Part shown: positions 1-18,394 of the stretch, in pieces
Layout: the number at the start of each line of letters is the position of its first letter
How positions within the stretch are numbered: position 1 is the stretch's first letter
From: an uncultured Ruminococcus sp.
Lineage (GTDB): Bacteria > Bacillota > Clostridia > Oscillospirales > Acutalibacteraceae
DNA: 40,963 bases
Direction: 5' to 3'
NCBI GenBank assembly: GCA_902802105.1
Contig: CADCKR010000024.1
Location: forward strand, 1 to 40,963
Program-made: the position numbers and the translations under genes
The notes under the pieces: model-generated
Database searches by the model: none
Told to the model about the DNA's origin: nothing
The model's input: only the letters and a program-made list of their open reading frames with translations

Positions 1-224
1 AACGCCGCCGCGGCAAGTAAATCAGCGTCTGCTAAAGAAGTTTCGGCAAAAGACCGCTAATTTATGTTCTTCTACGGCACTATCTGACGAATGAGCAGAA
101 CAAAGCGAGTGTAAACGAGCGGAGCGGACAGGGGAGCGGCAGCTTGCCGCAATGAGCAGAACAAAGCGAGTGTAAACGAGCGGAGCGGACAAGGGTGCGC
201 AGGCTCTGCGCAAAAAAATTTTTT
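1..224 (-). repeat. Mosaic intergenic repeat, locus 1 (inverted)
   Basis: Non-coding mosaic repeat. Positions 1-99 are an exact reverse complement of 18014-18112 and hold the ~68-bp block. Two identical 40-bp blocks follow at 90-129 and 151-190; the first overlaps the 99-bp match. They are separated by a GC hairpin (136-150, GCGGCA-GCT-TGCCGC). A second hairpin lies at 197-211 (GCGCAG-GCT-CTGCGC), followed by A7T6. Short ORFs crossing this stretch only translate the repeat. Positions 225-320 hold two GTCACTT-like direct repeats (229-246) and the ribosome binding site of the next gene; no convincing promoter was seen. Confidence 0.85.
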
Positions 225-320
225 ATAGTCACTTTGAAGTCACTTAAGGATTGTAAAATGACTACAGAAGGCAAGAGAAAGCCGAAACATGACAATAAAA
301 ATGCATAAGGAGTGCTTTAT

Positions 321-992
321 ATGGAAATTTTAAGAACAGAAAACCTTGTAAAAACTTATGGCAGCGGTGAAAACGCCTTCAATGCAGTAGATGGTATATC
401 TATGAGTGTTGAACAGGGTGAGTTCGTTGCAATAGTCGGACAGAGTGGCAGCGGTAAGAGCACACTTATGCATATGCTCGGCGGTGTTGACAGACCGACA
501 AGCGGCAGCATATTCATTGACGGCAACGAGATAAACAAGATGAACAGCGACAAGATGGCGATCTTCCGCAGAAGACAGATCGGTATAGTCTATCAGTTCT
601 ACAACCTCATTCCTATCCTTACGGCAGAGGAAAATATAACACTTCCGATGGAGCTTGACGGTAAGGCCGTAGACAGAGAAAGAGTTGACGAGATAATGAA
701 CGCTCTCGGCATCGCTGACAAGAAAAAGAATCTTCCTAATCAGCTTTCGGGCGGTCAGCAGCAGAGGGTCTCTATCGCAAGAGCAATAATTAACAATCCG
801 GCTATCCTGCTTGCAGACGAGCCGACCGGAAACCTCGATTCAAAGGCAACTGACGATATCGTAAGCATCCTTAAGATGACAAATAAGACCTTCCATCAGA
901 CGATAATCATGATAACCCATAACCTTGAGATAGCCAAGGAGGCCGACAGGATAATCCGCATAAGCGATGGAAAGCTTGCAGGGGAGGAATAA
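321..992 (+). CDS. ABC transporter ATP-binding protein (MacB/LolD-type)
   Basis: A 223-residue nucleotide-binding subunit that powers the FtsX-type permease encoded 3 bp downstream. Walker A is GQSGSGKST (residues 40-48, Lys46), the signature is LSGGQQQR (about 143-150), and Walker B with its extension is ADEPTGNLD (about 166-174). The GNLD ending is typical of the MacB/LolD/BceA class. The ATG at 321 is chosen because AAGGAG lies at 307-312; a GTG at 312 in the same frame overlaps that site and is unlikely to be used. Pairing with a large permease and a nearby two-component system resembles BceAB-BceRS or Vex-Vnc modules for antimicrobial peptides. The substrate cannot be told from sequence. 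Confidence 0.93.
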   Translation: MEILRTENLVKTYGSGENAFNAVDGISMSVEQGEFVAIVGQSGSGKSTLMHMLGGVDRPTSGSIFIDGNEINKMNSDKMAIFRRRQIGIVYQFYNLIPILTAEENITLPMELDGKAVDRERVDEIMNALGIADKKKNLPNQLSGGQQQRVSIARAIINNPAILLADEPTGNLDSKATDDIVSILKMTNKTFHQTIIMITHNLEIAKEADRIIRISDGKLAGEE

Positions 993-995
993 GCC

Positions 996-3908
996 GTGAA
1001 ACTGTTAAGAAAGCTGACTATTAAAAATCTGCTGATGAATAAAAGCAGAACGATAGTTTCTATAATAGGCATAGCTCTTTCTGTGGCGCTTATTACCACT
1101 GTGGCGTGTATCGTATCAAGTATGGATGCTTCCAGTGTTTATACAGCAATGATTTCAAGCGGCGATTATGATATCTATATGATGAGTGATGAGAGTCTGA
1201 CAAAGGATGACATTGCTGCGATAAAGACAAACCGCAATGTAAAGGATGTATATACTCTCGAATTTATCAAAACATATAAACTGACTGATCCTAAATTTCA
1301 GTATGTAAGCAATTTCAATTTGTATGGAACTGACCAGAAAACCCTGAACGCAAGCTGTATCGAGTTTGAAAGCGGACGTTTTGCAGAAAATGAAAACGAG
1401 ATCGTTATTTCGGCTTCGTTGAACCGCTACTCCAATAAGGAATATAAATTGGGAGATACTCTTCAGGCTGAATACGGAAAGCGTGTGCTTAAAAAGGGGA
1501 TACCGCAGTTTCAATATTTCTATGATTTGTTCGGCGGCTATGATATCCCTGAGGATTTTACAGGCACCTTCGGCGACGCTGAGGAATGGAAAAAAGAGGG
1601 CGTAAAGGAATTCAAGATAGTTGGTATACTCAAGGAGGAAGTAGGCTTCCTTTCATCGGATAATTATTCCAGTTCTTTATTCTTCACAGATACCATAAAG
1701 GTATATACATATAAGGAAATCGAAAACACAAATGTCTTATATGTCGATCTTTGGGAAAACGCAGAGAGTGAATATGCTTCCGTCCTTGCGCAGCTCATCG
1801 GCTTTGATGAAAATGATATCAGAAGCATTGTTGATAATTCTAATTTCTTCATAGGCGATGAAAGCGAATTCGGAAAGCGGATCGAACAGAGCCTTAAAGA
1901 CAGCAATAGTCCTTATGTGTCTTTTGGCATAAACCGTGAACTGCTCAGAGCAAAGGGATATTTGAAGGATGATTCCTCGGGCTTCACTCCGTCGTCATTC
2001 CTGGTAATGTTTGTAGGTATGCTGATCGTAATGCTCGCAAGCGTATTCATCATACGCAACAGCTTTGAGATATCCATTACGGAGAAGATACGTCTTTACG
2101 GTATGCTTTCATCGGTGGGAACGACACCTAAACAGATAAGGCAGAACGTGTTCTTTGAGGCTTTCGTACTGGGCGTTATCGGCATTCCGCTCGGAATACT
2201 GACAGGAATTGGCATAACAGTAGCGCTGATAGCATTCGCATCAAGCGTGCTTTCAGATCAGCTCGGCTCATACAAGCTTATCTTTGCCGTTAATTTTGGA
2301 GCTATAGCTCTGGCGATCGCAGTTGGTATTGCGACAATACTGTGCTCGGCAGCTACTTCTGCAAAAAAAGCCTCAAAGACCTCTCCGATGGAGGCTATAA
2401 GAAGCAGCAACGATATCAAGATCTCGGCAAAGCAGGCAAAGAAGGGCTATGCTGTGCCTAAGTGGATATCAAAGGTATTCGGCGCAGGCGGAAGCATTGC
2501 ATGGAAGAATATGAAGCGCAGCCGCAAGCAGTACCGCGCAACAGTAATTTCCATCATAATCAGCGTGTCGCTCTTCCTTGGCATAAACTCCGTGGTTGAT
2601 TTCACGATCAGAGGTCTTATGAGCCAGGATTACTATGCAATAGCAAATTCTGAGTACAATGTGATTATTGGCGTATATGCGGCGAATGAGTCCGGAGAAG
2701 AAGAAGGGATCCCCGCCAAAACTGAGGAGCAGTATTTTGAAAAAATAACCTCTGATCTGGGTGTGAGCAATTACAGGTTCCATTATTACTCCTGCGATTT
2801 TGAATTTTCTGTTACAGACGATCAGATCTGTGACGAGGTAAAGTTCGGAGGCTTGTATTATGATCGTATTTCCAGCAACACAGTAAAGGACGGCAAGGTG
2901 TCCTATCAGTTTATGGCTGTTGACAAAAAAAGCTTTATGAAGCTTTGCGATGAAGCCGGCCTGAAATATGAGGACTGTAAGGATAAGGGCTTTATCTGGA
3001 ACTACAATATAATGGATATTGGAGAAGACAATGATAGAATGCCGCGCCCTGAACCCGTAAAGCTTTTCAAGGATCCGGTAGGAATGGTTCTCAAGGGTGA
3101 ATGCGTATATGAAGAAGAAGTATACGAAGATCTTCCCGAGACAAGCGAAAACGATGAAGCAGATGGATATGAAGATGACTATTATCAGAATGTAAAGACC
3201 ATAGAGCATAAATATAACGCAGAGATAGAGATAGCAGGAACGATAGAGAAGGTGCCGGCTTCGGCTGGATTATCATCTATTTACAACAATAGAGCTATAG
3301 TTGTTACCACCGAAAAATTCGAGGAGTTTTTCACGAATCCGAGCTATGCAGAAATAGATGTAAGCACCTCAGATCCGAATGGTCTTGAGGACAGGGTATC
3401 TGAAAGTATTTTCCAGGGTAGCACACCTATCACGAACATTACAAACTACTCAAAGCTTGTAAATGATATGAAGTCCTCTCTTCTTGTTATTCAGGTGTTC
3501 GTTTACGGATTTATTGCTGTGATCTCGCTTATAGGCGTTACGAATATGTTCAATACCGTTACCACGAACATGAAGCTCAGACAAAAGGAGTTTGCTATGC
3601 TGAGATCTATCGGCACAACAAGCAAGGAACTTCACATGATGATACTTCTTGAAAGCGCACTTTATACCTTCAAGTCGCTTATGCTCGGTATTCCGATAGG
3701 CTTGATCGGAGGCTTGCTGATAACCTGGCCTATGAGCAATTCGTTAAATTCGGCAGGCATAAATGATGTTTATTTCCGTGTGCCATGGATCCCGATGCTG
3801 ATGTGCATACTGGTAGTGCTGCTGCTTCTCTTTGCGATAATGAAATTCTCTATTGCAAAGTTCAACAAGCAGAACATTATTGAGACCATCCGCAACGATA
3901 ACATTTGA
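996..3908 (+). CDS. ABC transporter permease, FtsX/MacB-like, large extracytoplasmic domains
   Basis: A 970-residue membrane subunit, partner of the ATPase just upstream. It starts at GTG 996, with GGGGAGGA at 981-988 inside the end of the ATPase gene. It appears as two FtsX-like halves. TM1 is about 20-42, a soluble domain spans about 43-330, and TM2-4 are about 331-353, 386-415 and 427-452. TM5 is about 515-537, a second outer domain spans about 540-827, and TM6-8 are about 828-856, 890-913 and 930-955. The repeated motif LRSIGTT / LSSVGTT follows the FtsX-domain helices in both halves. An acidic Glu/Asp-rich stretch lies near residues 705-730. The large outer domains fit mechanotransmission or peptide-sensing permeases. 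The transcript ends at the hairpin just downstream. Confidence 0.9.
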   Translation: MKLLRKLTIKNLLMNKSRTIVSIIGIALSVALITTVACIVSSMDASSVYTAMISSGDYDIYMMSDESLTKDDIAAIKTNRNVKDVYTLEFIKTYKLTDPKFQYVSNFNLYGTDQKTLNASCIEFESGRFAENENEIVISASLNRYSNKEYKLGDTLQAEYGKRVLKKGIPQFQYFYDLFGGYDIPEDFTGTFGDAEEWKKEGVKEFKIVGILKEEVGFLSSDNYSSSLFFTDTIKVYTYKEIENTNVLYVDLWENAESEYASVLAQLIGFDENDIRSIVDNSNFFIGDESEFGKRIEQSLKDSNSPYVSFGINRELLRAKGYLKDDSSGFTPSSFLVMFVGMLIVMLASVFIIRNSFEISITEKIRLYGMLSSVGTTPKQIRQNVFFEAFVLGVIGIPLGILTGIGITVALIAFASSVLSDQLGSYKLIFAVNFGAIALAIAVGIATILCSAATSAKKASKTSPMEAIRSSNDIKISAKQAKKGYAVPKWISKVFGAGGSIAWKNMKRSRKQYRATVISIIISVSLFLGINSVVDFTIRGLMSQDYYAIANSEYNVIIGVYAANESGEEEGIPAKTEEQYFEKITSDLGVSNYRFHYYSCDFEFSVTDDQICDEVKFGGLYYDRISSNTVKDGKVSYQFMAVDKKSFMKLCDEAGLKYEDCKDKGFIWNYNIMDIGEDNDRMPRPEPVKLFKDPVGMVLKGECVYEEEVYEDLPETSENDEADGYEDDYYQNVKTIEHKYNAEIEIAGTIEKVPASAGLSSIYNNRAIVVTTEKFEEFFTNPSYAEIDVSTSDPNGLEDRVSESIFQGSTPITNITNYSKLVNDMKSSLLVIQVFVYGFIAVISLIGVTNMFNTVTTNMKLRQKEFAMLRSIGTTSKELHMMILLESALYTFKSLMLGIPIGLIGGLLITWPMSNSLNSAGINDVYFRVPWIPMLMCILVVLLLLFAIMKFSIAKFNKQNIIETIRNDNI

Positions 3909-3940
3909 TTACGAGTTTTATCCAATATACCGACCACCCC

Positions 3941-3987
3941 GAAACATCGGCGGTTCCCGCAAGGAGCTGCCGATGTTTCATTTTTAG
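3941..3987 (+). terminator. Rho-independent terminator of the ABC operon
   Basis: A perfect 11-bp stem (3941-3951 with 3969-3979, GAAACATCGGC/GCCGATGTTTC) with a 17-nt loop is followed by ATTTTTAG. It lies 33 bp past the permease stop and separates the transporter from the two-component genes. Confidence 0.85.
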
Positions 3988-4243
3988 CGCCGAATCGGGA
4001 GCGGCAGCTTGTCGTCCGTAGAATCAGGTGCATTCGCAGTCTTTTGACGAAGCTTCTTTAACAGACGCTGGTTTATTCGCTCTGGCGGTATTGACTACAG
4101 TATGTGTTGAACAAGAAGCGAATCGGGAGCGGCAGCTTGCCGGCAGATCAAATTCGGCGGTTTTAGGAAGGGGGTCCGGGGGAGAACCCTTTTTCCGCCG
4201 GAAAAAGGGTTCCCCCGTTTCAGCGGTTTTAGGAGGGGGGGTC
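3988..4243 (+). repeat. Mosaic intergenic repeat, locus 2
   Basis: The order is a degenerate GC hairpin block (about 3993-4015), one ~68-bp block (about 4016-4085), one GTATGTGTTGAACAAGAAGC block (about 4088-4128), then the hairpin GCGGCAGCTTGCCG near 4129-4143. After that comes a 36-bp block (4147-4182) that matches 11861-11896 at 33 of 36 positions, and a long hairpin (4178-4216). A shorter copy of CAGCGGTTTTAGGA follows at 4221-4234. Orientation matches loci 4 and 5. No gene is supported here. Confidence 0.8.
4178..4216 (+). repeat. Long perfect hairpin inside repeat locus 2
   Basis: A 12-bp perfect stem (AACCCTTTTTCC 4185-4196 with GGAAAAAGGGTT 4200-4211) has a 3-nt GCC loop. It is extended by GGGGG (4178-4182) pairing with CCCCC (4212-4216) across a 2-nt AG bulge, for 17 bp in all. 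Near-direct repeats of GCGGTTTTAGGA flank it (4157-4168 and 4223-4234). There is no T-tract, so it is not a standard terminator. Confidence 0.8.
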
Positions 4244-4297
4244 CCCGTGTAACTCGCCGGCGCGAAATTGATTTCTGTGGAGTATTATTTGATAACA

Positions 4298-4326
4298 TTG
4301 ACATGGGGGAGTGGAAAGATTATAAT
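4298..4326 (+). promoter_or_regulatory. Consensus sigma-A promoter for the two-component operon
   Basis: TTGACA (4298-4303) and TATAAT (4321-4326) are separated by exactly 17 bp, giving a predicted start near 4333. An ATG at 4303, the longest-frame start of the response regulator, lies inside the -35 box and so cannot be the real start. Confidence 0.9.
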
Positions 4327-4380
4327 AATAGTGACAGTAACGAACCTGAAATGCAGTATTGTGATAAGGAGTGTAGGAAT

Positions 4381-5034
4381 GTGCATATATTATTGGTTGA
4401 GGATAACAGGATAATCTCAAAGGGTCTGGTATATACGCTGAAGTCCAATGGGCATGAGGTGACGCTGTGTGAGGACTGCGAAAGCGCAGTTGCAAGCTCA
4501 GGCGGTGAGTATGACCTTATGATACTTGACGTTACTTTGCCGGACGGCAACGGGTTTGAGCTTTTTAAAGAAATAAGAAGGCTCAATCAGGCGCCGGCGA
4601 TTTTCCTTACGGCGCTTGATGACGAGGATAATATCGTAAGCGGACTGGAGCTTGGCGCTGATGATTACATTACAAAGCCGTTTTCCACAAGAGAGCTGCT
4701 TGCACGTATCAAACGCTTTGATAACGCATCAAACGGCAAGGGAAGCATTCTGACTGTGGGCGATATCTCTGTTGATACGGAAAAGCATATCGTTATGAAA
4801 AACGGCGCTGAGGCAGAGCTTACTGCGCTTGAATACAGGATACTTATTATGCTTATGCAGAACGCCGGACAGGTCGTTACAAGAGAACGTATACTTGAAA
4901 AAATATGGGATATTGCAGGCAATTTTGTGAATGACAATACGCTGACAGTTTACATAAAGAGAATAAGGCAAAAGCTTGATACCGAGCTGATACGCACCGT
5001 GAAGGGCATCGGCTACAGAATGGAGGCAAAATGA
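4381..5034 (+). CDS. OmpR/PhoB-family response regulator
   Basis: A 217-residue DNA-binding regulator, partner of the histidine kinase that overlaps its stop codon by 4 bp (ATGA). The receiver domain starts at once (HILLVEDN). The predicted phosphorylation site is Asp50 (MILDVTLPDG), with the switch Thr near 77 (FLTALD) and Lys99 (YITKPF). The C-terminal winged helix ends in the usual RTVKGIGYRM. The start is GTG 4381: it has AAGGAG at 4366-4371, begins exactly at the conserved domain, and lies downstream of the promoter at 4298-4326. The in-frame ATG at 4303 would add 26 residues but sits in the -35 element. The likely target is the adjacent ABC transporter, by analogy with BceR; this is inference. 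Confidence 0.93.
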   Translation: MHILLVEDNRIISKGLVYTLKSNGHEVTLCEDCESAVASSGGEYDLMILDVTLPDGNGFELFKEIRRLNQAPAIFLTALDDEDNIVSGLELGADDYITKPFSTRELLARIKRFDNASNGKGSILTVGDISVDTEKHIVMKNGAEAELTALEYRILIMLMQNAGQVVTRERILEKIWDIAGNFVNDNTLTVYIKRIRQKLDTELIRTVKGIGYRMEAK

Positions 5035-6239
5035 AGCTGTCATCAAAATTCTATCTGATATTTGCAGCCATTACCCTGTTATTCTCGTTTGCAGGGGCAG
5101 GCGTTATGCAGTTCGGTATATCGGCGGCGAAAAGTGCGGACAGGCTGGCTTATTCTCAGCTGATAGCACTTATAAAAAAGGAATATCCCGATGTTGACGA
5201 AAGAAATATAGTATCAATACTCAACTCGCCTGACAGCAGCGGAAACGCAGATGAGCTGCTGAATAAATACGGCATATCCGAAAAGGATACGATCGTGCTG
5301 CAAAACAGGCAGAATTATGCGGCTGTTATATCCCTTGGGGTATCGGTATGCATCGGCCTTGGCTGTGCTTCGATGATCTGCTTCGGGATATACGTCAGTA
5401 TACGCAAAAGGCAGGACAAAAAGCTCACCAATTATCTGATGAAGATAAACAGCGGAAATTACCGCCTGAACTTTGAAGATATGAAAGAGGATCAGATATC
5501 TGTGCTCAGCAGTGAGATATACAAGACTACCGTAATGCTGAGGGAACAGTCGGAACGCTCCGTGACAGAAAAGCAAAAGCTAAAGGACTCACTCTCGGAT
5601 ATTTCGCATCAGCTCAAAACGCCGCTGACCTCAATAATGATAATGCTCGACGGCATACTTGAGGGCGATATGCCGGAGGAGCTGAAAAGGGAATTTCTCG
5701 GCGATATAAGGAACTCGATAACGCACCTGACATTCCTTACGCAGTCTATGCTGACGCTTTCAAAGCTTGATGCAAATACTATCACATTCCACGAAGAAAA
5801 GGTGCGGCTCAGTGATATAATAAATATCAGCATATCGAATACCTCTGCGATAGCACAGGACCAGGGTGTAGAGGTAAAGGGCGAATGTCCGGATATTACC
5901 ATCGAATGCGACATGAAATGGGTGTGTGAGGCTGTTACAAATATCGTGAAGAACTGCATAGAGCATACTAAAAAGGGCGGCTCTGTAACACTCATGGCGG
6001 AAGAAAACCCGCTGCTTATCAAGCTGACGATCGAGGACACGGGCTGCGGTATCAAAAAGAAGGATCTGCCGCATATATTCGAGCGTTTCTATAAGGGCAG
6101 CAATTCAAGCGATACAAGCGTCGGCATCGGTCTTGCACTTTCAAAAAGCATAATAGAGAAGTGCGGAGGATATATCAGTGTGCAGTCAACTGAGGGCAAG
6201 GGAAGCAAGTTTACCATCAAATTTTTCAAAACGATATGA
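5031..6239 (+). CDS. Sensor histidine kinase, membrane-bound
   Basis: A 402-residue kinase translationally coupled to the response regulator. TM1 is about 7-29. A short outer segment of about 65 residues lies between the helices, and TM2 is about 94-116. A HAMP-like linker leads to the dimerisation box with His193 (SDISHQLKTPLTS). The N box is NIVKNCIEH (about 306-314), then G1/F boxes DTGCGIKKKDLPHIFERFY and G2 box GIGLALS. The small sensor region is larger than that of true BceS intramembrane kinases (about 10 residues), so ligand sensing may be direct. It is followed after 16 bp by the S41-like gene, probably in one transcript. Confidence 0.93.
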   Translation: MKLSSKFYLIFAAITLLFSFAGAGVMQFGISAAKSADRLAYSQLIALIKKEYPDVDERNIVSILNSPDSSGNADELLNKYGISEKDTIVLQNRQNYAAVISLGVSVCIGLGCASMICFGIYVSIRKRQDKKLTNYLMKINSGNYRLNFEDMKEDQISVLSSEIYKTTVMLREQSERSVTEKQKLKDSLSDISHQLKTPLTSIMIMLDGILEGDMPEELKREFLGDIRNSITHLTFLTQSMLTLSKLDANTITFHEEKVRLSDIINISISNTSAIAQDQGVEVKGECPDITIECDMKWVCEAVTNIVKNCIEHTKKGGSVTLMAEENPLLIKLTIEDTGCGIKKKDLPHIFERFYKGSNSSDTSVGIGLALSKSIIEKCGGYISVQSTEGKGSKFTIKFFKTI

Positions 6240-6255
6240 TCCGGAGGTTGTCTTT

Positions 6256-8331: not shown

Positions 8332-8346
8332 TATCGGGGTGAAGAT

Positions 8347-8568: not shown

Positions 8569-8592
8569 CAGCGCAGGAGAGTGAGGAAGTAA

Positions 8593-9666: not shown

Positions 9667-9674
9667 CCGTCAGT

Positions 9675-9868
9675 CAGGCGGGACTTTCAAGTGAAAGTCC
9701 TCCGGTCTCGCCTGTCGGCTCGGGCGGCAAGCTGCCGCTCCCAATTCGGCGCAGGCTCTGCGCCAGCGTCTGCTAAAGGAGTTTCGGCAAAAGAACGCTG
9801 ATTTATGTTATGCCTGATGAATAAAAATTCCGCACTTGAATTTTTGGTCACTTAAATGTCACTTTGGG
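9675..9868 (-). repeat. Mosaic intergenic repeat, locus 3 (inverted)
   Basis: A nested hairpin after prfA (9675-9714: outer CAGGCG/CGCCTG, inner GGACTTTC-AAGT-GAAAGTCC) has no T-tract. It is followed by GC hairpins at 9724-9738 (GCGGCA-AGC-TGCCGC) and 9749-9763 (GCGCAG-GCT-CTGCGC). A partial inverted ~68-bp block (about 9763-9810) comes next. A GTCACTT direct-repeat pair at about 9848-9866 resembles that at 229-246 in locus 1, and both lie 60-80 bp before a gene. From 9869 to 9935 only the next gene's ribosome binding site is clear. Confidence 0.75.
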
Positions 9869-9935
9869 AGTTTATTATTTTACCCAGGATAAAGATTTCA
9901 GAAGAGTTGGTATATTGCAAATCGGAGGGGTAGCT

Positions 9936-11012
9936 ATGATAATAAAAAATATGCACTATATTCCGCAGAAGATGTTAAAGCTCAAGATCTTCTTTTCAAT
10001 AATTCTTCTTGTGTTACTTATTGTACAGATATCATCTATATGCAGTATAGTGGGTGCTATGACGGTAGAATACAGGCATATTACCGTCGAAGATATGGAT
10101 GATCTTAAAAGCGGAGAGCTTGTTCAGGGAACGGTTGATGCAAGTGATATCATAATGAATTATCAGGATGCAACGATTTCCGGCAATATTGTAGAGTGTA
10201 TCTCGGTGCTGACAAGCGACAGGAATGTAATAGTTATTGCGGCAAACCCGACGGTTGCACCTGATATGGCTTCTGAGGTGCATAATATTCAGCCAAAGTC
10301 TGACAGCTCCATCAGCTTCAGGGGCAAGGTAGGGAGACTTAGCGATACATACAGGACAAGCCTGATGATGAATATGCTGATGGATAATAAATATAAAGAG
10401 TATAATATTGACGAAAGGAACATTTCGTGGACAGCGATAACTCTTGTTGATAATGATACCGGAAAATGGACAGCGCTTCTTATCGCTTCAATATTAGGGC
10501 TTTTGGCTATTCTTGCAGGTATTTGGTTCCTTCTGAGAAAATCCCTGAACAACATTATTTATGGCCTGCTTGTGCAGAAGGGTGTGCTTGAACCTGAGAT
10601 AAAGGTCAGGAAGGAAGATATTGATCTGCACCAGCTTGACCCGTTCGCAAGCAATGGGGATATCGAAGATAAATTTTACTCAAATGACGATTATGAGACC
10701 GGTGAGATAAACGGAAGCTACAAATTCGCTGATGATCAGGATGAAACGGATACATCATATCAGCAGCCGGTTCAGAGCAGCACTAAGCCTGTCGGGGAAA
10801 AGAATGAGATAAGGGATTTCCTTGCAAGCAGCAGCTTCCTTGCTTCAACAGGTATTTTCGGTCTGGTCGGACACGAGCTTGAAAAGGAGAACAGAACCGA
10901 GGAAAAGGTCGAGTTTTATCAGGGCGGAGTAAACGAGGACGGCAATTTCTATGTGGACAGAGAAGAAAATAATAACGAAGATATTAACGGAGATCAGAGA
11001 CGCAGATATTGA
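9936..11012 (+). CDS. Two-TM membrane protein with acidic cytoplasmic tail, function unknown
   Basis: Not recognised. 358 residues from ATG 9936, which has GGAGGGG at 9924-9930; an upstream in-frame start at 9864 lacks a ribosome binding site. A basic N-terminus leads to TM1 (about 18-40), an outer domain of about 135 residues, TM2 (about 178-200) and a long hydrophilic tail rich in Asp/Glu/Asn/Gln. The next gene encodes a protein of the same plan: an N-terminal PxK/PKVM start, a TM1 ending near a YR motif, an outer domain with SFxG and a run of spaced Met, and TM2 near residue 180. They look like paralogues, probably forming a pair in the membrane. There is no domain on which to base a function. 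Confidence 0.75.
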   Translation: MIIKNMHYIPQKMLKLKIFFSIILLVLLIVQISSICSIVGAMTVEYRHITVEDMDDLKSGELVQGTVDASDIIMNYQDATISGNIVECISVLTSDRNVIVIAANPTVAPDMASEVHNIQPKSDSSISFRGKVGRLSDTYRTSLMMNMLMDNKYKEYNIDERNISWTAITLVDNDTGKWTALLIASILGLLAILAGIWFLLRKSLNNIIYGLLVQKGVLEPEIKVRKEDIDLHQLDPFASNGDIEDKFYSNDDYETGEINGSYKFADDQDETDTSYQQPVQSSTKPVGEKNEIRDFLASSSFLASTGIFGLVGHELEKENRTEEKVEFYQGGVNEDGNFYVDREENNNEDINGDQRRRY

Positions 11013-11027
11013 TAAGGAGAGTACAAT

Positions 11028-11789
11028 ATGACACTGATAAAATACAAGCCGATCAGATTCCCGAAGGTCATGGCGGCAATTTATTTCCTTATAGCTGTTA
11101 CCCTTATATCATCGGTAGTGACACTGATCTCTATTATAAACGATATGGTCACATTTCCCTACCGTGATGTGGAGCATGACAGGATATATTTTGTGAACGA
11201 GGATGAGATGATAAAAAGCGATGTATACAGGAAAGATGTTGTCGCATTCAACTCGGAGATAAAGCTTGATGTTGACTATATAAAGATGCTGGTAAAAACT
11301 CCTGAGAACAAGCTTGTATATATTACCGGTGACAGTGACCACATGGGAGATTATTACGCTCTTGAGCTTATGATGGAGAACCACACCTACGATGATTACA
11401 GCTTTTCCGGCCGTGCCGAAAAGATGGACAGTAATGTTGAGAATGAGATGCTTTCCCTCGTGACAGGCGATATGCTTTCCGAAAACGGCGTTACCGTTGA
11501 TGATATCTCTGATATTTATATCAGGATGGATTGCTACTGTACCCCGCCTGATGGAGATGACATAAAAAATGCCGTTCTGAGATGCGTCTTTATTCTGCTC
11601 CTGCTGCTTATAGCTCTCTGGCCTGTTGTGCGCAACGGGATATATCATTCCCGCGTAAAGAAGGGCATTATGCAGACTGATCCTCGTGAGCTTGAATATA
11701 AGGGACTTGCTCCGATAAAGCCCGCTCAGCTGTACCATACGGAAAAGGACGACTTTTGGCTGATAGACAACACGGAAAGCAATTCTTGA
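11028..11789 (+). CDS. Two-TM membrane protein, paralogue of the preceding gene, function unknown
   Basis: Not recognised. 253 residues; ATG 11028 follows AAGGAG by a normal distance, 15 bp after the preceding stop, so one operon. TM1 is about 10-35, the outer domain about 36-182, TM2 about 183-203, and the cytoplasmic tail is short (about 50 residues). The shared layout with the upstream protein, including FPYRDV against VEYRHI after TM1 and YSFSG against ISFRG in the outer domain, supports duplication. It lacks the long acidic tail of its partner. A weak hairpin follows 20 bp downstream. Confidence 0.75.
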   Translation: MTLIKYKPIRFPKVMAAIYFLIAVTLISSVVTLISIINDMVTFPYRDVEHDRIYFVNEDEMIKSDVYRKDVVAFNSEIKLDVDYIKMLVKTPENKLVYITGDSDHMGDYYALELMMENHTYDDYSFSGRAEKMDSNVENEMLSLVTGDMLSENGVTVDDISDIYIRMDCYCTPPDGDDIKNAVLRCVFILLLLLIALWPVVRNGIYHSRVKKGIMQTDPRELEYKGLAPIKPAQLYHTEKDDFWLIDNTESNS

Positions 11790-11809
11790 AATTTTACGTC
11801 AGGCAGTAT

Positions 11810-11848
11810 CACAAAATTACAATAGAGGATAATTTTGTGTAGTATTTT
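11810..11848 (+). terminator. Possible AT-rich terminator hairpin
   Basis: A perfect 10-bp stem (CACAAAATTA 11810-11819 with TAATTTTGTG 11830-11839) and a 10-nt loop are followed by TAGTATTTT. The stem is AT-rich, so termination would be weak; it could also be an operator-like palindrome. Confidence 0.45.
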
Positions 11849-11860
11849 GCTCTCAAATAT

Positions 11861-12318
11861 ATCAAATTCAGCGGTTTTAGGAAGGGAGTCTGGGGGCAGC
11901 GCAGAGCCTGCGCCGGCGAGCCGCCGGTGCCATGTCCGCTCCGCTCGTTTACACTCGCTTTGTTCTGCTCATTGCGGCAAGCTGCCGCACCCATGTCCGC
12001 TCCGCTCGTTTACACTCGCTTTGTTATTCTCATTCTGCAGATAGTCCCGTAGAAGCTGGTGCATTCGCAGTGCTTTGCAAAGACTTTATTTACAGACGCT
12101 GGTTTATTCGCCGCCCGTAGAAGCAGTTGCATTCGCAGTGCTTTGCAAAGACTTTATTTACAGACGCTGGTTTATTCGCCGCCCGTAGAAGCAGTTGCAT
12201 TCGCGGTGCTTTGCAAAAACTTTTTTTACAGACGCTGATTTACTTGCCGCGGCGGTACGGACTACAGTATGTGTTGAACAAGAAGCGAATCGGCACCGGC
12301 AGCTCGCCGGCGGCTCGA
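11861..12318 (+). repeat. Mosaic intergenic repeat, locus 4 (largest)
   Basis: The order is a 36-bp GCGGTTTTAGGAAGGG block (11861-11896, near-copy of 4147-4182), then hairpins at 11899-11913 (GCGCAG-AGC-CTGCGC) and 11913-11927 (CCGGC-GAGCC-GCCGG). The 40-bp block follows at 11934-11973 (exact reverse complement of 90-129), then a hairpin at 11974-11988, and a variant 40-bp block at 11995-12034 with changes near its end. Three tandem ~68-bp blocks (12046-12249) come next, then one GTATGTGTTGAACAAG block (about 12253-12292) and a CCGGC-AGCTC-GCCGG hairpin near 12297-12312. Small ORFs here are translations of the repeat. 11790-11860 holds only the hairpin listed above. Confidence 0.88.
12046..12249 (+). 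repeat. Three tandem copies of a 68-bp repeat block
   Basis: Units start at CCCGT at 12046, 12114 and 12182, so the period is exactly 68 bp with no spacer. The first two copies are almost identical. The third differs at scattered positions (for example AAAAACTTTTTTTACAG in place of AAAGACTTTATTTACAG). Single copies of the same block occur in the other four loci. Confidence 0.9.
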
Positions 12319-12329
12319 CAAGCAGGTTC

Positions 12330-12358
12330 TTGACAAAGACGAAAATGACGGTTATAAT
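12330..12358 (+). promoter_or_regulatory. Consensus sigma-A promoter upstream of tsaC
   Basis: TTGACA (12330-12335) and TATAAT (12353-12358) are separated by exactly 17 bp. It begins about 12 bp after the end of repeat locus 4, so the repeat is upstream of, not within, the tsaC transcript. Predicted start near 12365. Confidence 0.85.
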
Positions 12359-12565
12359 AACGGCAATAACGATAATTTTACCGACCCGTTCACAGGACGG
12401 TGATCGTCGGGCAAAAAATCGGGCAGCCGTCAGTAAAGCTTTAATATAAAAAGGCTCTTAACGCTGCAGGTCTTTTGACGGGCTTGCAGCTAAATTTTGT
12501 TGTTATGCTCCCGGAACAGAATGGAGTTATATCAGCATATCAACTTTTGGCAAAGGAACAGGAAG
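12359..12565 (+). other. tsaC leader region, 5' UTR of about 200 nt
   Basis: No gene seen. It can fold a compound stem near 12390-12420 (CCGAC ... GTCGG enclosing CCGT ... ACGG) and a 6-bp stem GCTGCA (12473-12478) with TGCAGC (12485-12490). The latter is followed by TAAATTTTGTTGTT, which is weakly terminator-like. A regulatory role is possible but unproven; it matches no riboswitch class I recognise. Confidence 0.4.
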
Positions 12566-13594
12566 ATGAAAATGCAAACATTGATGCTGAGTACGGAAGA
12601 AATAGATAAGGCAGCACAGATCATACGTGAGGGCGGTCTTGTGGCGATGCCTACGGAAACAGTGTACGGTCTTGCGGCAGATGCCTATAACGGCAAGGCG
12701 GTAGCAAATATTTTCAGGGCAAAGGGACGCCCGATGGATAATCCGCTTATAGTGCATATTGCCGATATCTCTCAGATATACGGCCTTGTGCGAGAGTTCC
12801 CTGAAAAGGCAAGGATACTTGCGGATAAATTCTGGCCGGGGCCGCTGACCATGATACTGCCGAAGTCTGAGCGCATACCCGATGAAGTCAGCGCCGGACT
12901 TGATACTGTGGCTGTGCGCTGTCCGTCTGACCCTTATGCGCGTAAGCTCATAAGTCTTTCATCACCTCTTGCGGCACCCTCGGCAAATCTTTCCGGCAGT
13001 CCGAGCCCTACAACGGCGCATCATGTTTTCAGCGATATGAACGGCAGGATAGATGCAATAATTGACGGCGGAGAATGCGATGTCGGCGTGGAATCTACTG
13101 TTATCACTCTTGCTGTGCAGCCGCCGAGACTGCTCAGACCGGGCGGCATTACACTTGAACAGCTCAGGGGTGCAATAGGCGAGGTAGTGCTTGACGATGC
13201 TGTGCTCAATCCGCTCAAAAGCGGCGAAAGGGCAGCAAGTCCGGGAATGAAATATAAGCATTATGCGCCGCAGGCTGAACTGACGCTTCTTAAAGGCAGC
13301 GAAGAGAGCTTCCTTAAATTCGTTAACGGTATGAAGGACGGAAAGACAGCCGTTCTGTGCTATGATGAGGATATCCCAAGGCTTGAACTGCCGTTTATTC
13401 CGCTTGGCAGGGCTATGGATCATGATGTACAGGCAAGCAGGCTTTTTTCTGCCCTGAGAGAAGCTGACGACAAGGGCTTCAAAAGGGTATATGCGCATTG
13501 CCCGCATACGGACGGAGTAGGCCTTGCGGTATATAACCGTATGATAAGGGCGGCAGGCTTTAAAGTGATAGAGCTTGATGATAAGACGTCATAA
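12566..13594 (+). CDS. tsaC: L-threonylcarbamoyladenylate synthase, Sua5 type
   Basis: A 342-residue enzyme that makes threonylcarbamoyl-AMP from threonine, bicarbonate and ATP, the first step of tRNA t6A37 formation. The YrdC core has the conserved MPTETVYGLAAD, AKGRPMDNPL (nucleotide-binding KGRP) and APSANLSGSPSPT. The extra C-terminal domain (about 210-342, with SPGMKYKHYAP linker motif) marks the longer Sua5 form. ATG 12566 is preferred with AAAGGA upstream; ATG 12572, two codons in, is also possible. Longer in-frame starts lack a ribosome binding site. It heads a run with coaE and a lytic transglycosylase. The symbol sua5 is equally used. Confidence 0.93.
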   Translation: MKMQTLMLSTEEIDKAAQIIREGGLVAMPTETVYGLAADAYNGKAVANIFRAKGRPMDNPLIVHIADISQIYGLVREFPEKARILADKFWPGPLTMILPKSERIPDEVSAGLDTVAVRCPSDPYARKLISLSSPLAAPSANLSGSPSPTTAHHVFSDMNGRIDAIIDGGECDVGVESTVITLAVQPPRLLRPGGITLEQLRGAIGEVVLDDAVLNPLKSGERAASPGMKYKHYAPQAELTLLKGSEESFLKFVNGMKDGKTAVLCYDEDIPRLELPFIPLGRAMDHDVQASRLFSALREADDKGFKRVYAHCPHTDGVGLAVYNRMIRAAGFKVIELDDKTS

Positions 13595-13640
13595 GCCTAA
13601 GAGAAAGTCTGACAAAAATATTTATTTCGGGGTGAAGGTC

Positions 13641-14249
13641 ATGGTAATAGGTCTTACAGGACAGACAGGCGCCGGAAAAAGCACTGTGGCAAGGCTGGCA
13701 GCAGAGATGTCGTGCTGCGTGGTGGATTGTGATGCCGTTGCAAGAGAAGCACTTTCTCCCGGGTCAGATTGTCTGAAAAGACTTGCAGAGCTTTTCGGAT
13801 GTGATATAATAAATGAGGATGGCTCATGCAGAAGAAGGCTGCTTGCGTCAAGGGCTTTTGCGGATAAGGAAAAGACCGCCCTGCTCAACAGTATTACTCA
13901 TCCCTGGATAATACAGCGTTCAAGCGAATATATTGAACAGTACAGGCAGAAATCGGATGCACCGATAATATTTGATGCGCCTTTGCTCTATGAGAGCGGC
14001 GGAGATGCACTGTGTGACTGTGTGATAGCTGTTATCGCGCCGCTTGATGTCAGGCTTGACAGGATAATGAAGCGTGACGGCATAACCCGCGAAGAGGCAA
14101 TGCTGAGGATAAACGCCCAGCAGGATGACGAGTTCTATATATCCAGAGCGGATCATATCATAGACGGTTCAGAGCCTCTTGCGCAGGTGAGAAAAAAGCT
14201 TATAAAGCTCCTTGAAGAAATAAAAAGAAAAAACAAAAATGAGGTGTGA
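13641..14249 (+). CDS. coaE: Dephospho-CoA kinase
   Basis: A 202-residue kinase that phosphorylates the ribose 3'-OH of dephospho-CoA, the last step of CoA synthesis. The P-loop is GQTGAGKST (7-15), followed by the acceptor-site DCDAVAR and, further on, FDAPLLYE, typical of the family. The lid region has RIMKRDGITREEA. ATG 13641 is chosen because GGGGTGA precedes it and the domain starts right there; a longer frame begins inside the end of tsaC. The stop codon is followed within 2 bp by the next start, so translation is probably coupled. Confidence 0.95.
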   Translation: MVIGLTGQTGAGKSTVARLAAEMSCCVVDCDAVAREALSPGSDCLKRLAELFGCDIINEDGSCRRRLLASRAFADKEKTALLNSITHPWIIQRSSEYIEQYRQKSDAPIIFDAPLLYESGGDALCDCVIAVIAPLDVRLDRIMKRDGITREEAMLRINAQQDDEFYISRADHIIDGSEPLAQVRKKLIKLLEEIKRKNKNEV

Positions 14250-14250
14250 A

Positions 14251-14829
14251 ATGAAAAAAATAACCCTGAGATCCGTTATCGTGATAGCGGCAGTACTGGC
14301 TGTGATCGTTTGTATAGCATTTATGTTCAGAGCGCTGAACATAAAAGTAACAAAGGATTCATTCCCTCTGAAATATGAAGAGATAATAGATGCTGCATCC
14401 GAGAAATACGGAGTTGACAAAGCGCTTATCTACGGCGTTATAAAGACTGAGAGCGATTTTGACCCCAATGCCAAGTCTTCGGCAGGTGCGATCGGGCTTA
14501 TGCAGCTGATGGATGACACATTTGTGTGGATGCAGACATATTATAAGGATGAGAATGACTATGTTTTTGAGGATCTTTACGATCCGGCGCTGAATATCGA
14601 CTACGGCGTTGAGGTGCTGTCGGTGCTACTTAAAAGGTACGATGGCAACGAGGATGCTGCGATCTGCGCATATAACGGCGGTGCAGGTCATGTGGATAAA
14701 TGGCTGAAGGATCCTCAGTATTCGGATGACGGCAAGACGCTCAAAAAGGTCCCGTTTGCCGAAACGGAAAATTACCGTCATAAAGTCGCAAGAAATAAGA
14801 GCATTTACAATCAGCTCTATTTTTCATAA
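14251..14829 (+). CDS. Lytic transglycosylase (SLT family), membrane-anchored
   Basis: A 192-residue peptidoglycan-cleaving enzyme. An N-terminal hydrophobic segment (about 8-27) acts as signal anchor and the SLT domain spans about 42-185. The catalytic Glu is at position 67 (VIKTESDF), with the family motifs SAGAIGLMQLM and AYNGGAGHV. It cleaves the MurNAc-GlcNAc bond to give 1,6-anhydroMurNAc in this family. ATG 14251 has GAGGTG (14241-14246) overlapping the coaE end; an ATG at 14239 has no ribosome binding site. It sits 1 bp after coaE, so it is co-transcribed, though the functions are unrelated. Confidence 0.92.
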   Translation: MKKITLRSVIVIAAVLAVIVCIAFMFRALNIKVTKDSFPLKYEEIIDAASEKYGVDKALIYGVIKTESDFDPNAKSSAGAIGLMQLMDDTFVWMQTYYKDENDYVFEDLYDPALNIDYGVEVLSVLLKRYDGNEDAAICAYNGGAGHVDKWLKDPQYSDDGKTLKKVPFAETENYRHKVARNKSIYNQLYFS

Positions 14830-14872
14830 AAAAGCGGTCAGTTGATCCCGCATAACGACAGGAGAGATAATA

Positions 14873-16297
14873 ATGACAGAAGAGATCAAGGAAGAAAAGA
14901 AGGAAAAAACAGAGACCGAGCTGCTCAAGGAAAAGCTGCTCATCAAGACCGAAAGCGGAGCCAAAACCCTTGAACCGGAGGAGATAGCAAAGGCTGATGA
15001 GTTCTGCAAGGGCTATACTGCTTTTCTTGACAATGCAAAGACGGAGCGCGACGCAGTAGACTATACTCTGAAAGCCGCTCTCGGCGCAGGGTTTACGGAG
15101 TATGACCCGACAAAGGACTATAAGCCGGGCGACAGGGTATATCTGAACAACCGCGGCAGGGCGCTGATACTTTGCGTCATTGGCAAAAACGGCACGAAAA
15201 ACGGCGTAAGGCTTGGTATCGCTCACATTGATTCACCAAGGCTCGACCTTAAGCCGAACCCGCTTTATGAGAGCAATGACCTTGCTATGTTCAAGACGCA
15301 TTACTACGGCGGCATCAAAAAGTATCAGTGGCCGACAGTTCCGCTTGCGCTTCACGGAGTTGTTGCGCTTAAAGACGGCACTGTAGTCAGGGTGCGCATC
15401 GGCGATGAGGAAAGCGAGCCCTGCTTTGTTGTTACGGACCTTTTGCCGCATCTTGCAGCAGATCAGATGTCCAAGGTAATGACAAAGGCGTTCAACGGCG
15501 AGCTGCTCAATGTGCTTATCGGCAGCAGACCCTTCCGTAAGGACAAGGAAAGTGAGTCTGTAAAGCTCAATATTATGAACATACTCTATGAGAAGTACGG
15601 ATTTACTGAGGCTGATTTTGTTTCAGCAGAGCTTACGATGGTTCCGGCAGGCAAGGCGAGGGACGTAGGTTTTGACAGGAGCATGATCGGTGCATACGGT
15701 CACGATGATAAGGTGTGCGCTTATCCGGCAGTAATGGCGGCGTTTGATACTGAGGTGCCGGATCAGACGATTATTTCTGTGCTCACCGACCGTGAGGAGA
15801 TCGGCAGTGACGGAGCTACAGGCATGAAATCCACCTATATGGCTGATTTCATCGCTGATCTTGCCAAGGTTGACGGCATGGAGCTACGTCATGTAATGGC
15901 AAAGACGACCTGTCTTTCGGCGGACGTTAATGCGGCTTTTGACCCGACCTATGCATCGGCCTATGAAGCAAACAACGCCTGCTTTATAAATAACGGCGCC
16001 GTTATCACCAAGTATACCGGCAGCGGCGGCAAATACAGCACTTCGGATGCTACTGCTGAGTTCGTAGCAAAGATCAGGAGGATACTTGACGATAAAAAGG
16101 TGCTCTGGCAGACAGGAGAGCTTGGCAAGGTCGACGGCGGCGGCGGCGGAACTATAGCAAAGTTCGTTGCAAACCTGAATGCGGATGTTGTTGACCTTGG
16201 CGTACCTGTGCTGTGTATGCACGCGCCTTTTGAGATCGTCTCAAAGATAGACGTTTACGAAACCTACAGGGCGCTGTTTGAGTTTTATAATGCGTGA
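14873..16297 (+). CDS. M18 family aminopeptidase
   Basis: A 474-residue zinc aminopeptidase that removes N-terminal residues, often acidic ones, from peptides in the cytoplasm. Metal and catalytic motifs of the M18 family are present: IAHIDSPR (first His ligand), DREEIGSDGATG (catalytic and ligand Glu/Asp), and CMHAPFEI near the C-terminus (last His). The N-terminus is lysine/glutamate-rich and probably flexible. AGGAGAG precedes ATG 14873. It is 43 bp after the transglycosylase, probably the last gene of the tsaC operon, and is followed by a hairpin. Confidence 0.93.
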   Translation: MTEEIKEEKKEKTETELLKEKLLIKTESGAKTLEPEEIAKADEFCKGYTAFLDNAKTERDAVDYTLKAALGAGFTEYDPTKDYKPGDRVYLNNRGRALILCVIGKNGTKNGVRLGIAHIDSPRLDLKPNPLYESNDLAMFKTHYYGGIKKYQWPTVPLALHGVVALKDGTVVRVRIGDEESEPCFVVTDLLPHLAADQMSKVMTKAFNGELLNVLIGSRPFRKDKESESVKLNIMNILYEKYGFTEADFVSAELTMVPAGKARDVGFDRSMIGAYGHDDKVCAYPAVMAAFDTEVPDQTIISVLTDREEIGSDGATGMKSTYMADFIADLAKVDGMELRHVMAKTTCLSADVNAAFDPTYASAYEANNACFINNGAVITKYTGSGGKYSTSDATAEFVAKIRRILDDKKVLWQTGELGKVDGGGGGTIAKFVANLNADVVDLGVPVLCMHAPFEIVSKIDVYETYRALFEFYNA

Positions 16298-16313
16298 GCC
16301 TGATAAAGAGCTT

Positions 16314-16359
16314 TGCATCGGCGTAAAGCCCGATACTTTACACCGGTGCATGATATCTT
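16314..16359 (+). terminator. Probable terminator after the M18 peptidase
   Basis: A long imperfect stem: TGCATCGG (16314-16321) pairs with CCGGTGCA (16343-16350) with one G-U pair, and GTAAAG (16323-16328) pairs with CTTTAC (16336-16341). It is followed by TGATATCTTTT. The weak T-tract lowers confidence. Confidence 0.5.
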
Positions 16360-16506
16360 TTGCGGAAAAGAAGAATGATCCCTGCCATATTTTTGGAAGA
16401 GTGTGTATATGATGGAAATATACAGCAAAAGACTGCCGGTACATAAATTTTTATTATGCAAATTCCTTATTTTGCGTAACAATACTGTAATAAAAAGGAT
16501 TTTATA

Positions 16507-16535
16507 TTGACAATCTGCCTTGTTTGTATTATGAT
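16507..16535 (+). promoter_or_regulatory. Sigma-A promoter of murA
   Basis: TTGACA (16507-16512), a 17-bp spacer, and TATGAT (16530-16535). The predicted start near 16542 gives a leader of about 160 nt containing a small hairpin GGAGCC-TGC-GGCTCC at 16651-16665. Apart from this and the terminator hairpin at 16314-16350, I see nothing in the 407-bp gap 16298-16704. Confidence 0.8.
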
Positions 16536-16704
16536 AACAAAAGAGTGGGTTTATCTTTTGCGTTAAATATTAATGCTTGTTTAGTGCAAGTTCCACAAAT
16601 CGGACACTGCCATACAGCATAGTATGACGGTGCTTTTTCGACTATACATAGGAGCCTGCGGCTCCGAATACTCATATAACCAAGCTTATAGGGAGTGTTG
16701 CAAT

Positions 16705-17985
16705 TTGAAACAGATCGTTGTAAACGGAGGCAGAAAGCTTAACGGTTCAGTGCATATCAGCGGCGCAAAGAATGCAGCCGTGGCCATTATTCCTGCCGTT
16801 ATCCTTTCCGACGGTGTCTGCCGTATCGAAAATATCCCTAATATAATGGATGTTAACCTGATAGCGAATATTCTGCATGAGATGGGTGCGAGAGTCAGCA
16901 GAGTGAACAAGACCACACTTGATATTGACCCTTCCTATATCAGACGACCTGTTGCCGCTTATGATATCGTCCGCAGGATGAGAGCTTCGAGCTATCTGTT
17001 AGGAGCTTTGCTCGGCAAGTTCTCAGAAGCTCAGGTCGCTCTGCCAGGCGGCTGTGATTTCGGTGTAAGACCTATAGATCAGCACCTCAAGGGCTTTGCT
17101 GTTCTGGGTGCAAAGCACAGTGTTGTACAGGGCATGATAAATGTAAAGGCAGAACGCTTGACAGGCGGGCACGTCTATCTTGATGTGGTGTCTGTGGGCG
17201 CCACTGTGAATATAATGCTTGCTGCTGTCAGAGCAGAGGGCAGGACTATCATCGAGAACGCCGCAAAAGAACCGCACATTGTTGACCTTGCGAACTTCCT
17301 TAACTCAATGGGCGCAGATGTCAGGGGTGCAGGCACTGATGTTATCAAGATAAACGGCGTAAAGCACCTTAACGGTACGACATATTCCATCATTCCCGAT
17401 CAGATCGAGGCAGGTACATACATGGTAGCTGCCGCAGCAACAGGCGGGGATGTTATAGTTCAGAATGTTATAACGAAGCATCTGGAGTCGATCACGGCAA
17501 AGCTCCGTGAGATCGGCGTTCAGATCGACGAGTACGAGGACGCTGTAAGAGTGCGCAGAACAGGCGAGCTCAGGCGCTGCAATGTAAAGACCATGCCTCA
17601 TCCCGGTTTTCCGACGGATATGCAGCCGCAGATCGCGGCTCTGCTTTCTATCGCACAGGGCACGAGCATCGTGACAGAGGCGGTGTGGGATAACAGGTTC
17701 CGTTATGTTGAGGAGCTGAAGCGCATGGGCGCAGTTATCTCTGTTGACGGCAAGGTCGCTGTCATTGAGGGTGTAAAGGAGCTTAACGGCGCACCTGTAA
17801 AGGCGACTGACTTGCGTGCCGGTGCAGCCATGATAATTGCCGCACTTGCAGCCAACGGCACGACACACATTGAAGATATTGAGCATATTGAGCGCGGATA
17901 TGAGGATATTGTTGAGAAGCTCACGGGTCTTGGCGCTGATATCCGTCTTATATATACAGACGATCCGATAGCGCGAAGAGCTTGA
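16705..17985 (+). CDS. murA: UDP-N-acetylglucosamine 1-carboxyvinyltransferase
   Basis: A 426-residue cytoplasmic enzyme that transfers enolpyruvate from PEP to UDP-GlcNAc, the first committed step of peptidoglycan synthesis. The start is TTG 16705, with AGGGAG upstream; it gives the canonical MKQIVVNGG N-terminus, whereas an in-frame ATG at 16624 has no ribosome binding site. SGAKNAA (about 20-26) carries the conserved Lys-Asn pair. Cys117 in LPGGCDFGVRPIDQHL is the PEP-reactive cysteine targeted by fosfomycin, so the enzyme has the sensitive Cys form. The late motif PHPGFPTDMQPQ is intact. The gene runs directly into repeat locus 5, whose first hairpin starts 3 bp past the stop. Confidence 0.95.
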   Translation: MKQIVVNGGRKLNGSVHISGAKNAAVAIIPAVILSDGVCRIENIPNIMDVNLIANILHEMGARVSRVNKTTLDIDPSYIRRPVAAYDIVRRMRASSYLLGALLGKFSEAQVALPGGCDFGVRPIDQHLKGFAVLGAKHSVVQGMINVKAERLTGGHVYLDVVSVGATVNIMLAAVRAEGRTIIENAAKEPHIVDLANFLNSMGADVRGAGTDVIKINGVKHLNGTTYSIIPDQIEAGTYMVAAAATGGDVIVQNVITKHLESITAKLREIGVQIDEYEDAVRVRRTGELRRCNVKTMPHPGFPTDMQPQIAALLSIAQGTSIVTEAVWDNRFRYVEELKRMGAVISVDGKVAVIEGVKELNGAPVKATDLRAGAAMIIAALAANGTTHIEDIEHIERGYEDIVEKLTGLGADIRLIYTDDPIARRA

Positions 17986-17987
17986 AC

Positions 17988-18394
17988 GGGTGCGCAGAGC
18001 CTGCGCGCCCATATCTGCTCATTCGTCAGATAGTGCCGTAGAAGAACATAAATTAGCGGTCTTTTGCCGAAACTTCTTTAGCAGACGCTGATTTACTTGC
18101 CGCGGCGGCGTTCGCGGCGGCGTTGACTAAGGTATGTGTTGAACAAGAAGCGAATCGGGAGCGGCAGCTTGCCGCCCGTAGAAGAAGGTGCATTAGCGGT
18201 GCTTTGCAAAAACTTTCTTTTACAGACTCTGGTTTACTATTCTGTGCGGAATGAACTAAGGTATGTGTTGAACAGGCAGCGAATTGGCACCGGAGGCTCG
18301 CCGGCGAATCGTAAGCGCAGACTATGCGCCGCTGATTTACTTTCTCTGGCGGCGCTGACTGCGGTTGTGCTGAACAAACAGCGTGACCATAAAA
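17988..18394 (+). repeat. Mosaic intergenic repeat, locus 5
   Basis: It opens with a 10-bp, 3-nt-loop hairpin (17988-18010, GGGTGCGCAG-AGC-CTGCGCGCCC). The ~68-bp block lies in 18014-18112 (exact inverted copy of 1-99). A GTATGTGTTGAACAAG block follows (about 18118-18160), then a hairpin at about 18161-18175, a second ~68-bp block (about 18176-18245) and a second GTATGTGTTGAACAGG block (about 18249-18288). A hairpin (about 18291-18305) and a degenerate third copy (to about 18394) end it. The two blocks thus repeat as a unit of about 130 bp. No gene is supported between murA and 18510. Confidence 0.85.

Follow-up and report, generated by a model that had tools for sequence, protein, structure and literature searches.

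A hairpin-ended composite repeat in a rumen Ruminococcus genome, probably mobile and resembling REPIN and BOX elements

What are the repeats that fill five gaps between genes in the left 18 kb of a contig from an uncultured rumen Ruminococcus sp., and do they move? The window that we analysed, the whole stretch of 40,963 nucleotides from position 1 of contig CADCKR010000024.1 (assembly GCA_902802105.1), had received an initial annotation that described in these gaps one modular family of 40-bp, 68-bp, 55-bp and 36-bp blocks and short GC hairpins, read it as a non-autonomous mobile or recombining element or a structured RNA/DNA signal, and proposed genome searches, covariance analysis and a comparison of insertion sites. 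We found that one composite repeat has copies in all five gaps (numbered here from the left), and that gaps 2 and 4 also hold a second element, a miniature inverted-repeat transposable element that we call MITE D. The observation of a conserved, multi-copy repeat without an open reading frame (ORF) is confirmed, with blocks and hairpins recovered in the gaps, and its interpretation is partly supported: we put at roughly 0.6 the probability that the composite is a mobile, hairpin-ended, non-autonomous repeat, like repetitive extragenic palindromic sequences (REPs) and their hairpin-forming doublets (REPINs), and like BOX elements.

The canonical composite is about 201 bp long and consists of a hairpin, the 40-bp block, at least one 68-bp block, the 55-bp block and a second hairpin, in that order. 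At its left end, a hairpin with an AGC loop carries a tail ([AT]CCC or TGCC), commonly followed by RTGTCCGCTC, before the 40-bp block, which about ten bases separate from the first 68-bp block; at its right end, the 55-bp block finishes with GCGAATCGGGA (or GGCA) and leads into a hairpin with a GCT loop, so that the two ends are inverted. Both the 68-bp block and one of the hairpin types finish with the motif CTTGCCGC. Genome-wide, the blocks are not restricted to the window: in the 2.0-Mb source genome, BLAST placed the 68-bp block at 67 places, the 40-bp/hairpin stretch at 50 and the 55-bp/36-bp stretch at 69 (some of which are the complementary arm of one and the same hairpin), and the 16-mer GTATGTGTTGAACAAG occurs 25 times, its reversed control not once. 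Merging the BLAST and 16-mer places gave 73 clusters, around which 68 stretches were retrieved for inspection; 59 clusters contain composite modules and 14 do not, the 59 being a minimum because the merge missed the degenerate copy in gap 3. In all 73 clusters inspected, the order and orientation of blocks are constant within composites, as the initial annotation had it for order, and entire composites occur on either strand; the two orientations that it reported therefore hold for whole composites and not for the blocks within one. An alignment was made of 13 canonical copies, which measure 194-202 bp.

To compare insertion sites, we used the sister species G019, the strongest match among 22 of the 36 other same-genus genomes when queried with a 4.9-kb source stretch, which is syntenic with the source genome and shares 72-83% DNA identity with it in four long stretches. 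Eleven sites were compared, ten of them with composites, and the composite is missing from G019 at nine of these ten: at window gaps 2, 3, 4 and 5 and at C6:4534, C6:7849, C25:13789, C25:22117 and C32:39268. A hairpin scan of the G019 stretches, allowing one mismatch, found none at the nine composite-free sites. The site C25:22117 is only widely bracketed (3.8 kb in the source against 1.2 kb in G019), and at C25:13789, where an inversion has its breakpoint, the comparison covers two G019 junctions. At gap 2, the flanking matches enclose about 107 bp in G019 and about 387 bp in the window. At gap 4, window positions 11767 and 12329 map 11 apart in G019 (the left match is just 58% identical), which marks a plus-strand insertion of 561 bp (11768..12328, approximate limits taken from the BLAST ends). 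A plus-strand ORF at 11028..11789, to which no family is assigned (no Pfam match at E 1e-4), now terminates inside the MITE D terminal repeat, and the sequence after the insertion (12329..12403, plus strand) reads LDKDENDGYNNGNNDNFTDPFTGR up to a stop, a homologue of the ends that are intact in G019 (LDKDDEDGYNNGNNDNS, then a stop) and in the relative L039 (LDKDENDGYYNN). With the ORF end displaced and its orphaned 3' end beyond the insertion, the gap-4 element entered a coding end, and the strictly intergenic placement first proposed does not hold. In L039 (RUG14171), sequence matching both flanks of gaps 3 and 4 encloses no copy, nor is there one within the 312 bp visible at gap 2. The eleventh site, C32:27176, has MITE D alone in the source genome and lacks it in G019. 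We also found the reverse case, a one-mismatch hairpin of G019 (C31:45949) corresponding to window 19243-19268, which carries no such hairpin. Composite copies thus look like gained sequence.

The composite ends are built on three main stems, GCGCAG, GCGGCA and CCGGCG, with the AGC/GCT loop common to all. In 183,618 bases scanned, hairpins of these stems and one variant number 121, and an AGC or GCT loop closes 124 of the 137 GC-rich 6-bp stems that carry 3-nt loops; across 1,271,817 bases of relatives' prfA loci, AGC is not prominent among loops. The end unit of about 28 nt comprises an unpaired tag, CGCGAATC-GG[GC][AT], and then a 6-bp stem with a GCT loop, the left unit in the source genome bearing a variant tag. 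For 56 distinct tag-and-hairpin sequences (those among the matches listed, found with a pattern that limits letters and does not require pairing), 96.7% of stem cells pair, compared with 76.3% in shuffles, and the covariation score is 0.515, compared with 0.177; 0 of 500 shuffles reach either value, and sliding the stem partners abolishes the pairing signal. Pairing reaches 98.4% of stem cells in a smaller, selected set of 21 sequences.

We then searched 60 genomes, namely the source, 36 other species of the genus and 23 genomes from other families, and found that the end and the interior of the composite are distributed differently. The interior occurs in the source genome only, three same-genus genomes matching with the end alone. 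The tag-and-hairpin pattern (one mismatch allowed) has 64 places in the source genome and is present in 20 of the 36 other species, six of which hold 27-137 places each; outside the family it occurs once, in 1 of 23 genomes, and its reversed control is absent from all 60. Aligned on the tag, mean identity across species is 0.6-0.9 inside the unit and 0.24-0.31, the chance level, beyond it on both sides, in a set of 46 source sequences and one to eight from each of ten other species that were chosen by the unit itself. The ends recur in the genus and the interiors are species-specific. Spread on phages, plasmids or viral contigs is not supported by the queries tried: viral contigs gave no match to one exact hairpin pattern or one MITE D pattern, and plasmids and phages no BLAST match with window stretches.

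Several results weigh against a mobile, hairpin-ended element. Stem pairs changed on both sides number 4 of 6, a count that does not exceed the shuffles, of which 439 in 500 reach it. For the whole composite folded as one hairpin, consensus pairing holds in 669 of 702 cells, but with the end hairpins removed, the interiors of the 13 source-genome copies fold as RNA with a mean z-score of -0.7 (range -3.9 to +2.1, three copies below -2). As DNA, 17 units (six from the source genome, eleven from four other species) scatter around zero, from -4.6 to +2.5. In general, then, these scores do not support an interior that folds at length, nor a single long conserved interior hairpin, such folding being seen in some copies only. 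Structure lies in the terminal hairpin, and the average interior scarcely exceeds shuffled sequence in this respect. Of the structured signal suggested at the outset, the terminal hairpin is borne out and the interior is not, and a known Rfam family was rejected since no Rfam match lies within the gaps. Selection for a functional RNA or for cis-regulatory elements (terminators, attenuators) would suit the mostly intergenic copies, the terminator-like hairpins among some neighbours and the strong hairpin of MITE D. Such elements would not be expected to be missing at nine of ten orthologous composite sites or to fall to chance-level identity beyond the end unit, and with the interior scores and the Rfam result this makes the explanation very improbable.

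Further points against mobility come from the sites themselves. At the tenth composite site, C32:31207, G019 carries its own composite, with a different interior and ends of the same kind; the absences in G019 could in part be losses there; and the printed junctions of the G019 comparison, read by eye, have no clean target-site duplication at composite ends. Flanking genes (28 tandem, 14 divergent and 3 convergent pairs among 45 scored of the 59 clusters, by crude ORF calls) form a context unlike that reported for REPs, which lie predominantly between unidirectional and convergent genes according to passages of PMC3733652. No mobilising enzyme was found either. If the hairpins were instead recombination or template-switch points in replication, host repair could copy blocks between intergenic sites and convert them in place with no transposase at all, and neither an enzyme nor a clean duplication would be expected. 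The short sequence common to module junctions, the composite lying at an inversion breakpoint relative to G019 and the interiors at C32:31207, which differ between species as in-place conversion would leave them, agree with this. It accounts less well for complete composites missing at nine of ten sites and for an insertion within an ORF, and one 28-nt end signal kept across species exceeds the needs of repair; on this evidence we regard host repair without a transposase as unlikely to be the source of the copies.

Another possible source of movement is a transposase from the assembly's missing part: the composites might be ordinary REPINs mobilised by an IS200/IS605-type Y1 transposase or a REP-associated tyrosine transposase (RAYT). 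Their architecture, inverted tagged hairpins, is that of REPINs (as described in passages of PMC3116915), and Y1_Tnp (PF01797) occurs in three of the six other hairpin-rich genomes, G007, G019 and G027, as well as in G003 and G018, which have 8 hairpin places each. We did not find this domain in the source genome (89.5% complete) or in the hairpin-rich G013, G026 and G035 (79-80% complete), which also weighs against the mobile reading, whereas it is present in the hairpin-free G002 and G017. Stop codons interrupt the Y1 match in G018 and the best of those in G007. Among 8 Y1 loci inspected, of 20 match places, none is bracketed by perfect-stem units, and a perfect-stem scan of the same loci returned a single hairpin, which lies some 330 nt from the G019 gene. 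A Y1 transposase as the simple explanation is thus not supported, and we consider ordinary REPINs with a lost or unassembled enzyme quite improbable.

For a mobile composite, a mechanism can be outlined that would leave the interior free to change. The recognition signal would be the roughly 28-nt unit of unpaired tag and 6-bp stem with its GCT loop; two inverted units would enclose the 40-bp, 68-bp and 55-bp interior, whose conservation would not be required; a putative factor, conserved in the genus and supplied in trans, would work on the hairpins in folded form, copying the enclosed stretch to new, mostly intergenic sites; and later recombination at shared short sequences such as CTTGCCGC may multiply and shuffle the blocks. 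A more specific possibility, which we hold only tentatively, is a genus-wide system outside Y1/RAYT in which the enzyme recognises the tagged hairpin by shape, several stems sharing one loop, and moves whatever two units enclose. Each species would then have built its own interior between fixed ends.

The second element is separate. MITE D comprises the 36-bp block GCGGTTTTAGGA, a strong internal hairpin and 16-bp terminal inverted repeats (TIRs) like CACGGAAATCAATTTT. The 36-bp block, first listed as a part of the composite family, belongs to this MITE; MITE D and the hairpin-ended composite are two unrelated families. The proposal of a non-autonomous mobile element had merged them; it is right in that the repeat is conserved, multi-copy and ORF-less and that its presence differs between sister species, as it should for such an element. 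Among the loci examined, there are seven MITE D-type copies of 94-213 bp whose ends depart from the 16-bp repeat by at most 3 mismatches; the relative L042 holds one of these copies. Another of the seven, the 125-bp relative D2 (L179 893-1035, contig C1), directly adjoins MITE D and has the 9-bp sequence GTGCCGCAG on both sides, a 9-bp duplication; a C32 copy of MITE D is flanked on both sides by an imperfect TCAGCAG[AG]C. The composite is nested inside MITE D in gap 4, C16 and C46. Seven longer terminal-repeat pairs, from 501 to 4995 bp, occur in the same loci, and the 501-bp one is MITE D with a nested composite.

Within the window, the 68-bp block has 6 plus-strand copies, 63-97% identical to the reference, and the 40-bp and 55-bp blocks and the hairpins were likewise recovered. 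Gap 1 lies on the minus strand: the start of a 55-bp block (1-10) and a 68-bp block (11-78) form a composite truncated by the contig end (1..78), and two 40-bp blocks follow, with a hairpin after each (90..211; GCGGCA stem at 136-150, GCGCAG stem at 197-211). Window 1-99 is the exact reverse complement of 18014-18112, and contig C4 likewise ends in an exact 99-base match to another copy; of 15 contig ends tested, these two reach 99 bases and the rest share between 0 and 79. These identities look like a k=99 assembly overlap, and the perfect identity of gap 1 is therefore no biological evidence. Several contigs terminate within composite repeats. Gap 2, on the plus strand, contains a damaged hairpin, a 68-bp block (4015-4082), a 55-bp block and a tail with hairpin (4119-4143), together 3988..4143, and then MITE D (4144..4279), with the GCGGTTTTAGGA core, the strong internal hairpin and the right terminal repeat AAATTGATTTCTGTG. 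The degenerate copy in gap 3 (9724..9809, minus strand) is limited to two hairpins (9724-9738 and 9749-9763) and half of one 68-bp block (9764-9809). In gap 4, the left end of MITE D (terminal repeat from 11771) precedes the plus-strand composite (11899..12311), whose left part has hairpins at 11899-11927, a 40-bp block, a hairpin at 11974-11988 and a second 40-bp block, and whose right part has three 68-bp blocks (12046-12249), a 55-bp block and a tail with an imperfect hairpin (12286-12311). Gap 5 holds two plus-strand composites: the first (17992..18175) has a hairpin (17992-18006), a shortened 40-bp block, a 68-bp block (18035-18102), a 55-bp block and a tail with hairpin (18151-18175); the second (18175..18380) has a 68-bp block, a 55-bp block, imperfect hairpins and degenerate module remains. 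Five copies in 18.4 kb are more than a Poisson mean of 0.54 predicts (post hoc, the mean taken from the 59 clusters without gap 3). Window 18400-40963, which includes rpoB, has no composite or MITE D copy by BLAST with block queries and hairpin scan. The confinement to the left 18 kb is accidental: the same contig has further copies at 46.06-46.29 and 54.93 kb. The sole Rfam match in the window is a lysine riboswitch (37167-37346), upstream of an aspartate-semialdehyde dehydrogenase gene (37489-38565).

Composites elsewhere in the genome vary in other ways. In seven of them (C5:40965, C6:7849, C8:12034, C14:14164, C25:35439, C43:10635 and C49:8908), a CT/CA-rich run like ACTCCACACTCCTAACTAATTTTCT, directly before GTATGTGTTGAACA, substitutes part of the 68-bp and 55-bp blocks. 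At C4:56579-56996, a hairpin-like 15-mer lies inside a 68-bp block with one CGCTG copy on each side, which looks like an insertion with a 5-bp duplication. Between the source (C25:12700-32600, stretch L319) and G019 contig C1, a segment of about 14 kb lies in inverted orientation, with one breakpoint at the composite C25:13789-14140 and the other near a MITE D copy (L319 about 15735-15830).

How do these repeats compare with known ones? In the open-access literature searched (titles, starts of abstracts and hairpin 15-mers as text), no description of them in Ruminococcus or Ruminococcaceae was found; passages of PMC10589994 connect Ruminococcus with a CRISPR repeat and name the palindromes nowhere but in the title of a reference. 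The TIR-type MITEs accommodate MITE D and D2, with their CACGGAAATCAATTTT ends and, for D2, GTGCCGCAG on both sides, and not the composite, whose ends are hairpins of unlike stem type with no clean duplication at the printed junctions. Cyanobacterial small dispersed repeats are likewise very small and insert into other repeats, a likeness to the composite by description only. With BOX of Streptococcus pneumoniae (boxA-boxB(n)-boxC), the composite shares a fixed order, a variable number of middle blocks and nesting with other repeats (BOX as portrayed in passages of PMC3049150); the match is in architecture alone, as 40-bp, (68-bp)n, 55-bp. The same passages give BOX TIRs and target duplications, whereas the composite ends in GC hairpins whose stems are interchangeable, with no duplication observed. 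With REPs, REPINs and bacterial interspersed mosaic elements (BIMEs), it shares a short unpaired tag and palindromic hairpin, inverted pairs, high copy number and species-level variation, and, with REPINs, inverted doublets around a less conserved spacer (in the source genome; the spacer differs between species). REP tags are GTAG or CGTC, whereas that of the composite is CGAATYGG[GC][AT], and it differs further in its several stems with one loop, its long multi-block interior and in that no RAYT was found in these incomplete genomes; by tag and RAYT, it is therefore not filed as a REP member. Passages of the REP survey PMC3733652 describe CGTC REPs as also without a known transposase, and its main text makes no mention of Firmicutes or Clostridi. 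The initial annotation named no known family; the composite has a likeness to the catalogued kinds REP/REPIN/BIME and BOX without being assigned to any of them. If the mobile reading is right, tagged-palindrome repeats would extend to a rumen Ruminococcus-type genus with a tag and mobiliser unlike those studied, identical ends with different interiors in many sister species would offer a natural experiment, and the spread of REPs without RAYTs would become testable by relating gene content to hairpin copy number.

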